Shown piece by piece: positions 19,305 to 34,462 of a DNA stretch of 37,087 nucleotides; the first letter of the stretch is position 1, and every line of letters starts with the position of its first letter. Origin of the DNA: Burkholderiales bacterium (GTDB lineage Bacteria; Pseudomonadota; Gammaproteobacteria; Burkholderiales; Burkholderiaceae_F); contig OMSW01000290.1 in the NCBI GenBank assembly GCA_900290295.1, positions 360-37,446 of the forward strand, given 5' to 3'. The notes beneath the pieces are model-generated. The model saw only the letters and a program-made list of their open reading frames with translations. It had not been told where the DNA came from and searched no databases. A program made the translations under genes and the position numbers.

Positions 19305-20262
19305 TTGCTCTACCGAACGGCATCGGCCCGAGTGCAGCGCACCTGTGGAAAAGGTACATTCGACACTACTCGGCTGCAAAACGGAGTTCCCATTTTGGTT
19401 GTCAAGCTCGCCAGGAAGGTTCGATCCGCGCCGGGATCCGTGCTGGCGAAGACGACCGGCCTGAGCCTTGGTAGGCCAGTTCGGCCCAGCGTGCCGCGCA
19501 AGTCCAAGGACGATCGCCATTTCGTTACGGCACTAGCCCGTGGCCTTGAGGTGTTGGCCTGTTTCGGGACGGACGAGAGCACCCTAAGCAACCAGGAGCT
19601 GGCGCAGCGCCGCGAGCTGCCCAAGTCCACGGTGTCGCGCTTGACGATGACGCTGACCAAGCTCGGTTACCTGATTCATGTGGCGGAAAGCGGCCGCTAT
19701 CGCCTCGGCACTTCCTGCCTGGCTCTCGGCAGTGCGATGCTGACTCGCTTGGACGTTCGCAAGATCGCTCGACCGATGATGCAGGAACTGGCCAATTTTT
19801 CCAACCCGACGGTGTCGCTCGGCGTGCGCGACAAGCTGTCGATGATCTACGTCGAGAACTGCCGCAGCGCGGCGGCGCTGACACTGACGCTGGATGTGGG
19901 CGCCCGCATTCCGGTCGCGACCTCCGCCATCGGCCGTGCCTGGCTGGTGGCGGTTCCCGATCGCGAACGGGATGCGTTCATGGAGCCGGTTCGCGAGATA
20001 GACGACGTGGCTTGGCCGGGGATTCTGCATCGAGCGGGCCCGGGAGGACTACCGCACGCTCGGAGTTACCTGCTCGATCGGCGACTGGCAGAAGGACGTG
20101 AATGGGATCGCGCGCGCGTTTTATCCCGGCAACGGTTTGCCGATCATGGCCATCAATGTCGGCGGACCTTCGTTTAACCTGTCCCGCGACTTTTTGCTCC
20201 AGGAGGTACGGCCCCATTTGATCGATCTGGTGACGCGGCTCGAGAGTGCGCTGCCGCGCTAA
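19305..20262 (+). pseudogene. IclR-family transcriptional regulator, frameshifted near 20018-20021
   Basis: Frame 1: ALARGLEVLACFGTDESTLSNQELAQRRELPKSTVSRLTMTLTKLGYL (IclR wHTH) to ~20020; +1 frame continues IERAREDYRTLGVTCSIGDWQKDVNGIARAFYPGNGLPIMAINVGGPSFNLSRDFLLQEVRPHLIDLVTRLESALPR stop 20262. Confidence 0.82.
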
Positions 20263-22353: not shown

Positions 22354-24444
22354 ATGGATAACCTCTCGTATAGCGTGCGTGGAAATGTCGCCGTGCTGAC
22401 ACTCAACAACCCGCCGGTCAACGGCCTCGGTTTTCGGCTGCGCAGCGATTTGCTGAGCGCGTTTGACCGTGCGCAGAACGATCCCCAGGTGCGTGCTCTG
22501 GTGCTGTACGGCGGTGACACGGTATTTTCGGGCGGTGCGGACGTGCGCGAGTTCGGCTCGCCCAAGGCGTCGATGGAGCCCAATCTGCCAAGCGTGATCC
22601 GCGCGCTCGAATCATCTGCAAAACCAGTGGTCGCCGCGATTGCGGGGAACTGCCTTGGCGGCGGATTGGAACTGGCGCTAGGCTGCCACTGGCGTGTCGC
22701 GAAGGCCGATGCCTCGCTGGGTCTACCCGAGGTGAAGCTCGGATTGCTGCCCGGCGCCGGCGGCACGCAACGCCTGCCGCGTGCCATCGGCCTGGAGCCT
22801 GCGCTGAACATGATCGTCTCCGGCGAGGCGCAGTCGGCCTCCACCTTTGCCGCGACGGCGCTGGTCGACGTGGTGGTCGATGGCGAATTGCTGCCCCAGG
22901 CTCTGGCCTTTGCGGAAAAGCTGATCGCCGACGCGCGACCGCTGCGCCGGCTGCGCGACCTCAAGGTCGATGCGCCTGCGGCCGAAGCCTACCTGCAATT
23001 TGCTCGCAACAGCGTGCGCGCTGGCGCTGGGAACCTGCCTGCCCCGTTGCGGTGCGTTGACGCCGTCGCTGCCTCGGTGAGCACGCCATTCGAAGAAGGC
23101 CTCAGGATCGAACGTGCGGCGTTCATTGAGCTGATGAACACGCCGGAATCGCGGGCGCTGCGCCACGTGTTCGCGGCCGAGCGCGCGGCGGGAAAGGTCG
23201 ATGGCTTGCCTGCCGACACGCCGCTGCGAGAGGTTCGCAGGATCGGCGTCATCGGTGCGGGCACCATGGGCGGGGGAATCGCGATGAGCTTCGCCAACGC
23301 CGCGTACCCGGTGGTGTTGCTCGAAGCCAGCCAGGCTGCGCTCGACAAGGGACTGGCCACGATACGCAAGAATTATCTCCACACCTTGAGCAAGGGCAAG
23401 ATCTCGCAAGAACAAGTCGACCAGCGCCTGGCGCTGATCCAGCCGACGCTCAGCTACCAGGACCTGCGCGGTGCCGACCTGATTATCGAGGCGGTCTTCG
23501 AGAACATGGAAGTCAAGCAACCGGTGTTCGAAATGCTGGATAAGGTGGCCAAGGCGGGCGCCATCCTGGCATCTAACACCTCGACCCTGGACCTGAATCG
23601 CATCGCCGCCTTCACCAAACGGCCGCATGACGTGATCGGCCTGCACTTCTTTAGTCCGGCCAACGTGATGCGCCTGCTCGAGGTGGTGCGCGGCGACAAG
23701 ACGGCGCCCGATGCTCTGGCCACTGCGATGCAGCTGTCCAAGCGCATCAAGAAGGTGGCGGTGGTTTCGGGCGTGTGTGACGGCTTCATCGGCAACCGCA
23801 TGCTGGCGCGCTACGGCGCTGCCGCCAATGACCTGCTGAACCTGGGTGCGATGCCGCAGCAGGTGGACCGCGCACTGGAGCAGTTCGGGCTGGCGATGGG
23901 CATCTTCCGGGTCGGCGATCTGGCGGGCTTGGACATCGGCTGGGCGATCCGCAAGCGCCGCGCTGCCGAGCGTCCGGGCGAGGATTTGCCAACGATCGCC
24001 GACCGCATCTGCGAAGCCGGTCGCTTCGGGCAGAAGACGGGAGCGGGCTGGTACCGCTACGAGCCGGGCCGGCGCGATCCCTTGCCCGACCCTGCGGTCG
24101 AGCGGATTATCGAGCAGTGGCGTAAGGAGCATGGCTACACGCCCCGCATGATCGGCGATGCCGAGATTGTCGAGCGCTGTATCTACGCGCTCGTCAACGA
24201 GGGTGCGCGCATCCTCGAGGACGGCATCGCGCAGCGCGCCTCCGACATCGATGTCGTCTATCTCAACGGTTACGGCTTTCCGCGCTACCGTGGCGGACCG
24301 ATGCGCTACGCCGACGAGGTGGGCCTGCCCAACGTCGTGCGTGCGCTGCGCCGGATAGCGACAGAATCGCCGGCCGATGCCGCCTACTGGGCGCCAGCGC
24401 CCTTGCTGCTGCGTCTGGCCGAAGAGGGCAAGAGCTTCGCCTAA
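22354..24444 (+). CDS. Bifunctional enoyl-CoA hydratase / 3-hydroxyacyl-CoA dehydrogenase (FadB/FadJ-like)
   Basis: [37 protein letters not shown] (crotonase) and [30 protein letters not shown] (HAD NAD-binding); start 22354. Confidence 0.95.
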
Positions 24445-29916: not shown

Positions 29917-30368
29917 CACCCAAGGTCTTTCCTTTTGACAAACTGCAGGAGCTCGTCGGGCAGGCCCTTGGCACTAGCGACTGGATCCTGGTGGATCAGG
30001 CCCGCATCGACGCGTTCGCACACGTCACCGGTGATCACCAGTGGATTCATGTGGATGCCGGACGTGCAGCCGAGGGCCCGTTTGGAAGCACCGTGGCCCA
30101 CGGCTACCTGACGCTGTCGCTGTTGCCAGCGATGGTTGCCACGGCGTTCGAAATCAACGGCAGTCGCATGGGAGTCAACTACGGCATCAACCGCTTGCGC
30201 TTTCCCGCCCCGGTACCGGTCGGCAGTCGCTTGCGTGGCCATTTCAGGCTGCTCGCCTGTGACCCCATCGAAGGTGGCGTCCAGCTCGTCATCGAGGCAA
30301 CGATCGAACGTGAAGGATTTGCAAAGCCTGTGTGCGTAGTCGAGATGCTGGCGCGGCGCTATCGCTGA
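29913..30368 (+). CDS. MaoC-family enoyl-CoA hydratase/dehydratase
   Basis: FAHVTGDHQWIHVDAGRAAEGPFGSTVAHGYLTLSLLP (hydratase-2 motif); YGINRLRFPAPVPVGSRLRG. ATGA overlap with upstream gene. Confidence 0.94.
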   Translation: MTPKVFPFDKLQELVGQALGTSDWILVDQARIDAFAHVTGDHQWIHVDAGRAAEGPFGSTVAHGYLTLSLLPAMVATAFEINGSRMGVNYGINRLRFPAPVPVGSRLRGHFRLLACDPIEGGVQLVIEATIEREGFAKPVCVVEMLARRYR

Positions 30369-30484
30369 TCGCAACCTTGCGTGGATTGCGAACTTGTCCT
30401 AGATTTGCTTATTGGGTCCGACGTTCTGCAACGTATCGCCGATATTGTGCAGGCGCTGTGAATGTTCTCGGCCAGGTGCCGTCG

Positions 30485-31225
30485 ATGCGTGAACGTGTAT
30501 CGCCGCAGGAGTGGAAACTTCGCGTGGACCTGGCCGCCTGTTATCGGCTGGTCGCGCTGTTCGGCTGGGACGACCTGGTGTTCACACACATCTCGGCGCG
30601 CGTTCCGGACGAGCTCGGACATTTCCTGATCAATCCCTATGGACTCTTCTTCGACGAGATCACCGCCTCCAGCCTGATCAAGGTCGACCATTCGGGCGCG
30701 CCCCTGCACGACACGTCGTTTCCGGTCAATCCTGCCGGGTTCGTGATCCACAGCGCGGTCCATGCGGGTCGGCCGGACGTGCACTGCGTGCTGCATACGC
30801 ACACGCCGTATGGCGTGGCGGTTGCGGCGCAGGCCAGCGGCTTGCTGCCACTGTCGCAGCAATCGGCATTTGTGCTGGCAAGCCTGGCGTATCACGACTA
30901 CGAGGGCGTCGCGCTTCGCGAAGCCGAGAAGGCACGCCTGGTGGCTGACCTCGGCGCGGCGCAGCACTTGATTCTTCGCAACCACGGGCTGCTGACCTGT
31001 GGTCGCAGCATCGCGGAGGCCTTCCAGTCCATGTACATCCTGGAGGCGGCGTGCCGCATTCAGGTGCTGGCGCAGGCCGGTGGACCCCTGGTCGAGGTGC
31101 CGCAAACCATCATTGACAACATTGCGGCGCAGGTGCGCGAAGTCACGCAAGGCCTTGGCGCCGCGCTGGTCTGGCCCGGGTTGCTGCGGCTGCTCGATCG
31201 GCGCATGCCGGGTTATGAGGCCTGA
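30485..31225 (+). CDS. Class II aldolase/adducin family protein
   Basis: YRLVALFGWDDLVFTHISARVP...FLINPYGLFFDEITASSLIKVD; metal-binding CVLHTHTPYGVAVAA; LILRNHGLLTCG. Confidence 0.92.
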   Translation: MRERVSPQEWKLRVDLAACYRLVALFGWDDLVFTHISARVPDELGHFLINPYGLFFDEITASSLIKVDHSGAPLHDTSFPVNPAGFVIHSAVHAGRPDVHCVLHTHTPYGVAVAAQASGLLPLSQQSAFVLASLAYHDYEGVALREAEKARLVADLGAAQHLILRNHGLLTCGRSIAEAFQSMYILEAACRIQVLAQAGGPLVEVPQTIIDNIAAQVREVTQGLGAALVWPGLLRLLDRRMPGYEA

Positions 31226-31237
31226 GACGCAGTGACG

Positions 31238-32051
31238 ATGGGCATCCTCGTGCTTAGCGCTCCCTTGCCCTCGGCCCCATTCGTCGCCGCACTGCGCGCA
31301 GCCGCACCCGACGTTCCGGTGTGGAGCGAGCGGGAGCGGCCTCCATCGGACGAGGCTGTGGAGGCAATTCTTGCGTGGCGACTGAAACCGGGCACGGTGT
31401 CGCGGTACCCGAAGCTGCGCGTACTGTGCTCGACCGGTGCCGGTGTCGACAAGCTGCTCGCCGCCTCGGATCTGCCGCCCGACTTGCCGGTGACGCGTGT
31501 GGTCGACCCGTTGCAGGCGCAATCGGTTGCGCAGTATGTGGTGGCGTACACGCTGCGCTTTGCACGCGATCTGCTTGACCCCGCTGGGCTATCCACTTGC
31601 AATGTGGGGACGGCGACGGCGGTCTTTGCCGGTGGGGCGCAGTCTCGCCGGCGACGCAGAGTTACCGCTGCTGCTTGCGCAGTCCGATGTGCTCATCTGC
31701 ACGCTGCCGCTGACGCCGGCCACCCGAGGGCTGCTCGACCGCGCCCGGATGTCGCAGCTGCCGCGCGGCTCATACCTAATCAACGTCGGTCGCGGCGAAC
31801 ATTTGGTGGAAGGCGACTTGCGGGCTCTGCTCGACGAAGATCATCTCGCCGGGGCGGCGCTCGACGTATTCGAGCGCGAGCCGCCGCCGCCTGATGCCTG
31901 GATCTGGCGACACGCGCGAGTGACTGCCACACCGCACATCGCTGGCGAGGCGCGCGACGAGATCGTCGCTGCGCAATGTCTGGACGCCTTGCGCCGCGCT
32001 CGCGCCGGAGCGACGCAGCCATTTGCCGTCGACCAGGCGGCGGGGTACTGA
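31238..32051 (+). pseudogene. D-2-hydroxyacid dehydrogenase (GhrA-like) with internal deletion and frameshift
   Basis: Frame 1: MGILVLSAPLPSAPFVAALRAAAPDVPVWSER...RYPKLRVLCSTGAGVDKLL...VVDPLQAQSVAQYVVAYTLRFARDLL; +1 frame resumes LGYPLAMWGRRRRSLPVGRSLAGDAELPLLLAQSDVLICTLPLTPATRGLLDRARMSQLPRGSYLINVGRGEHLVEGDL...TPHIAGEARDEIVAAQCLDAL. Segment that should carry GxGxxG is absent. Confidence 0.85.
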
Positions 32052-32080
32052 CAGCAGCACAACGGACCGAGGACGCATCG

Positions 32081-33300: not shown

Positions 33301-34462
33301 TGAATTTCGAACACAGCGACGAACGCCGGATGTTGGCCGACACATTGAATCGATTTATCCGCGAGCAATATGGTTTCGCCACGCGGCAGCGTATCTGCGC
33401 ATCGGCGCAGGGCTGCAGCCGCGAGGTCTGGCAGCGCTTGGCCGAGCTGGGCGCGATCGCCGCCTTGTTCCCCGAGTCCGACGGCGGTTTCGGTGGAGCC
33501 GGGTTCGACATCGCCATCGTCTTCGAGTCGATGGGTCGCGGCCTGGTGGTTCGGTGGTCGAGCCGCTGGTCGGCGCCCTAATGGCGGGTCAGGTTTTGGC
33601 CACGGTCGGCACCGAGGCCGCGCGCGCATTGCTGGCCGAGCTGATCGCGGGCGAGAAGATTGTGCTGCTTGCCTACGAGGAGGCCGACACCTTCGCCGAT
33701 CCAAGCCGTATTGCCCTGCGCGCCGAACGCGCTGGCGCTGGCTGGCGCCTCACCGGGAGCAAGTCGGTCGTTCACCAGGCCGAGCAGGCCGACGCCTTCG
33801 TGATCGCAGCGCGTACCAGCGGCGCGGTAGGCGACGAGAACGGCCTTTCGCTGTTCCTGGTGCCGCGGGACACGCCGGGTCTGAGCCTTCGGGGATATCG
33901 GTTGATCGATGGCGGCCGGGCCGCTGAACTGACACTTGGAGCCGTTGCGCTGCCCGCCGTGTCGCTGCTCGGCATGGCCGACAGTGCGCATCCCGTGATG
34001 GAGCGCGCCATCGGCTATGGGGTACTTGCCTTGACCGCGGAGTCCCTGGGGGCAATGGAGGCCGCCAAAGAGGCGACCTTGGAGTACCTGCGGACCCGCA
34101 AGCAGTTCGGCACGCCGATCGGCAGCTTCCAGGCGCTACAGCACCGCATGGCCGCGCTGCTGCTCGAAGTCGAACAGGCGCGGTCGAGCGTGATCAATGC
34201 CGCGGCCTCGCTGGGTGCCGGGCGAACGTTGCGGGAGCGCGCGCTTTCGGCTGCCAAGGTCACCGTCGGCCGTGTCGGGATCTTGGTTGCCGAAGAGAGC
34301 ATCCAGTTGCACGGCGCCATCGGGATGACCTGGGAACTGCCGCTGGCACACTTTGCCAAGCGCCTGGTGATGATCGATCACGAGCTCGGCGACGAGGATC
34401 ATCACTTGGCACGCTTCATTGCGCTCGGTCGAGGCAAGGCACTTGCTGCTGGTGCGCCATGA
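33301..34462 (+). pseudogene. Acyl-CoA dehydrogenase (PimD-like small subunit), frameshifted by an 8-bp duplication near 33545-33557
   Basis: Frame 1 MNFEHSDERRMLADTLNRFIREQYGFATRQRICAS...FESMGRGLVV; resumes in other frame VEPLVGALMAGQVLATVGTEAARALLAELIAGEKIVLLAYEE...; removing 8 nt gives GRGLVVEPLVGAL. Confidence 0.85.

Follow-up and report, generated by a model that had tools for sequence, protein, structure and literature searches.

The closest described counterparts of the gene analysed here are the GhrA-type glyoxylate/hydroxypyruvate reductases (PF02826; solved relatives 4XA8, 5VG6 and 6P35), and the solved relatives of its orthologue include GhrA as well as NADP-dependent dehydrogenases. 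A second comparison is offered by frame-broken genes in draft genomes, since assembly errors, which vary with coverage and assembler, account for many of the pseudogenes called in bacteria (PMC11017572). The window, that is the whole stretch of 37,087 nt that was analysed, contains a gene whose two halves both align in order to intact members of the reductase family but which, in contrast to the GhrA-type enzymes, has neither the coenzyme motif nor a continuous frame in the assembled sequence. It likewise resembles the spurious pseudogenes generated by assembly errors: the affected genes are frame-broken but constrained, occur several per draft and are few or missing in a closed relative, with the difference that here they are known from the assembled sequence alone. 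With a probability of roughly 0.6, the absence of 119 nt from this gene is a local assembly error and the dehydrogenase gene is intact in the living organism.

The N-terminal homology runs in frame over 31235–31573, ending at ...AQYVVAYTLRFARDL and encoding about 114–115 native residues; it is lost after 31573 within an ORF (31232–31894) that continues to a stop at 31894. Homology restarts at 31581/31584 (P-LGYPLAMWGR...), one frame over, and the C-terminal part then comprises 155 residues. Exactly 43 codons (129 nt) separate RDL/REL from LGY/LGF in all six orthologues L029–L034, and by these landmarks and codon counts, as well as by tblastn, the window shows a net absence of 119 nt and a +1 frame shift (Table 1). 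In place of a single frame of about 310 codons (orthologues, 308–318 aa), the ORFs 31232–31894 and 31497–32051 lie in different frames. The GxGxxG motif is present as GLGAVG or a one-residue variant of it in L029–L034, and not in the assembled window gene; because the absent stretch carries GLGAVG, the Pfam 2-Hacid_dh_C profile is matched in the window only over its last two thirds (positions 55–178 or 80–178, versus 2–178 in the orthologue L029). The earlier note had proposed, from the letters of the window, an internal deletion in a 2-hydroxyacid dehydrogenase gene and had suggested an alignment to intact GhrA-like orthologues as a check. This alignment confirmed the gap, the loss of GLGAVG and the frame change, and for the assembled sequence the family, the position and the +1 shift had all been named correctly; the estimate of about 130 bp for the missing length was slightly high.

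Table 1. Features of the dehydrogenase locus and other frame-broken genes of the window (positions counted from the first letter of the window).
Feature	Position	Strand	Evidence
IclR-family regulator, frame-broken	19305..20259	+	Pfam HTH_IclR and truncated IclR_C
Class II aldolase/adducin-family gene, intact, immediately upstream partner	30332..31225	+	Pfam PF00596, E 3.2e-49
GhrA-like dehydrogenase, N-terminal part	31232..31573	+	63–71% identical to L029–L034
Junction	31574..31583	+	10 nt where orthologues have 129 nt; no Ns, no flanking direct repeat of at least 7 nt
Dehydrogenase, C-terminal part, next frame, to native stop	31584..32051	+	65% identical to L029; Pfam 2-Hacid_dh_C (PF02826), E 1.2e-31
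Third acyl-CoA dehydrogenase (ACAD3), frame-broken	33303..34462	+	Pfam Acyl-CoA_dh_N separated by the break from _M and _1

The absent segment was not found elsewhere in the assembly when probed for with a full-length orthologue or with 60 residues spanning the gap, both of which matched only unrelated dehydrogenases; this result fits an assembly error and a real deletion alike. Repeat slippage or k-mer collapse was considered as a cause of the junction and rejected in view of the missing direct repeats; a microhomology of a few bases may nevertheless have been involved.

Membership in the family is supported by homology over both the catalytic and the coenzyme domains. The six orthologues recovered by the genome scan (L029 from Caldimonas, L030 from Rhizobacter, L031–L033 from Azohydromonas and L034 from a betaproteobacterial MAG) are 59–65% identical to the C half of the window gene (for the N half see Table 1), and three further ones, L054–L056, were obtained by an order-wide search. 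Since the two halves match the same orthologue, at 71 and 65% and in the correct order, a chance alignment is excluded. PRK15469 GhrA is the NCBIfam model that fits both the C half and the L029 orthologue best; its scores, 125.5 bits with the C half of the window gene and 174.7 bits even with the intact L029, are far under the 403-bit cut-off of the GhrA equivalog NF012013, which places the gene in a GhrA-like subfamily and not in GhrA itself. The Arg/Glu/His motifs of the family are kept in the alignment columns of the window C half (NVGRGE, DVFEREPP and ATPHIA), and these Arg, Glu and His positions are presumably the catalytic residues.

Judged from homology and gene order, the broken gene is a predicted accessory GhrA-like D-2-hydroxyacid dehydrogenase, paired with the class II aldolase gene and situated inside a beta-oxidation-type catabolic locus with genes for a thiolase, an SDR, an APH-like protein, three acyl-CoA dehydrogenases, a quinone oxidoreductase, MaoC and an acyl-CoA ligase. 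The aldolase, whose true start is probably at about 30455–30480, shares 73–77% identity with the gene that directly precedes the dehydrogenase orthologue in L029–L033; as the two genes adjoin each other in Caldimonas, Rhizobacter and Azohydromonas too, they travel as a pair.

Apart from the junction, no other stop or frame change is present in either half of the 0.8-kb dehydrogenase gene, and dN is much lower than dS in each. The window sequence changes 7 of the 91 positions that are invariant in the nine other sequences, mostly conservatively, a share that falls within the 1–12% of the intact orthologues. Secondary decay, in the form of further stops, indels or relaxed constraint, was thus observed in neither half, although a very young pseudogene would also be free of it. 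With both halves intact and constrained, any loss is either very recent or not real, and the substitution pattern indicates that the dehydrogenase gene either is still constrained normally or was so until very recently.

The source assembly is a gapped draft of 316 contigs with a completeness of 88%. Short N runs numbered 34 in the 488 kb sampled from it (10 N in 24 of them, and 2, 4, 6, 7 or 9 N in the others), with none found in 316 kb of the same-genus draft G003 or in 300 kb of the closed same-genus genome G002. A 10-N run inside a gene (L063:4381) stands for roughly 160 nt and a 6-N run inside another gene (L069:5423) for roughly 55 nt, which means that the length of an N run does not reflect the lost sequence; with gap estimates reaching down to 2 N, joins with 0 N are to be expected. 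Frame-breaking lesions without N were indeed present in unrelated genes of the draft. A gene for a CusA-type RND pump (contig C4, L063 near 2397–2412) has about 109–121 nt missing together with a frame change, its ORF being intact in four same-genus genomes (G001, G002, G003 and G005), and the gene for an AcuI-like quinone oxidoreductase (contig C12, L071 near 7772) is disrupted by a tandem duplication of 19 nt with an exact 18-nt repeat. Lesions in the sample are few and unevenly covered: outside the window, a frame-breaking loss of about 120 nt without Ns was clear in only one case, leaving the base rate poorly known. A codon-usage frame-jump scan, whose flags were read by eye, yielded 2 real breaks in the source draft (G000; 293 kb) and about 1 in the closed G002 (300 kb), figures too noisy to be used as a rate, and from a homology-based split scan, in which false events from antisense or low-identity matches were numerous, we retained only the cases with matching sense frames. 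G004, another same-genus genome, is likewise a draft interrupted by short N gaps; in it, a fadB-like multifunctional gene (L053) is frame-broken with 17 nt missing, the window counterpart of this stretch (22712–22728) being intact.

An assembly error at the dehydrogenase locus would have arisen from a small gap in coverage, estimated to be nearly zero in length, the edges of which were then joined without sequence and without Ns. Small joins of this kind, with under- or over-estimated gap lengths, would also explain the breaks in the CusA-type, AcuI-like, ACAD3, IclR and fadB-like genes. The N-gapped state of the draft, the N-less lesions in other genes, the lack of decay outside the junction and the published frequency of assembly errors among pseudogene calls count in favor of this explanation; the junction without Ns and the missing flanking repeat that could explain a misjoin count against it. 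It also counts against it that the gene is accessory and was found in none of the other family genomes searched, so that a real loss would be tolerated, and that three lesions in one locus could represent the real decay of a dispensable operon. Since joins of a similar kind are observed in unrelated genes and decay does not extend beyond the junction, an assembly gap is nevertheless likelier than a loss of the coenzyme site by the organism, and we infer that the dehydrogenase join is one of these joins. The claim of the earlier note that the coenzyme site is lost therefore holds for the assembled sequence, from which the motif is absent, and is not established for the organism, given the similar joins in unrelated genes.

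The next explanation, to which we give tentative credence only, is a genuine recent pseudogene, in which a lineage-specific internal deletion of the 119 nt would have removed the first Rossmann strand-turn-helix (GxGxxG), shifted the frame and abolished enzyme function, and would mark the beginning of decay of the locus. The clean assembled junction would be in line with such a deletion, as would two more frame-breaking indels in the same catabolic locus: ACAD3 has 8 extra nt at 33546–33553 (GTGGTTCG before GTGGTCGA) compared to the intact and contiguous same-genus copy of G004, and the IclR gene has a 5-nt loss near 20028 relative to its G004 copy. Moreover, dN/dS in the C part of ACAD3 reaches about 0.26, the maximum of the locus, compared to about 0.07–0.17 in the correctly framed neighbours, and the aldolase–dehydrogenase pair is missing from the syntenic locus of G004 and hence dispensable. 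However, the 0.8-kb gene has no additional lesion and still shows normal signatures of selection, operon decay leaves unexplained the similar lesion in the pump gene, of which four same-genus genomes have intact copies, and the draft G004 has its own frame-breaking loss in a gene that is intact in the window. A wider version, in which the dehydrogenase, ACAD3 and the IclR regulator were really and very recently inactivated together, as the first step in losing a laterally acquired aldolase–dehydrogenase module and the surrounding catabolic locus, is unlikely. If the deletion were real, the gene would be an ordinary pseudogene, and neither a collapsed gap nor a recent pseudogene is novel. Caution is therefore appropriate: the broken dehydrogenase should not be taken for a gene lost by the organism, and the draft's remaining frame-broken genes need comparison with the reads before operon decay is claimed.

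It is highly improbable that the two halves are made as separate functional products or rejoined by recoding: although a GTG at 31497 opens the downstream frame, no recoding would bring back the 40 missing residues that include GLGAVG, the first product would carry about 105 residues of an unrelated reading frame behind its 115 native ones, and no orthologue is split like the window gene.

The syntenic locus of G004 is 78–82% identical to the window at the nucleotide level and has the end of MaoC joined to the start of ACAD2, and no same-genus or same-family copy of the dehydrogenase orthologue was found among 67 genomes; with the pair missing in G004 and no orthologue in the other family genomes, the pair is accessory, either gained here or lost in G004. 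The nearest relatives of the pair belong to other Burkholderiales families, those of the dehydrogenase being the orthologues from Caldimonas, Rhizobacter and Azohydromonas. In the window, the stretch occupied by the pair and representing an insertion relative to G004, or a loss there, spans 30369–32069.
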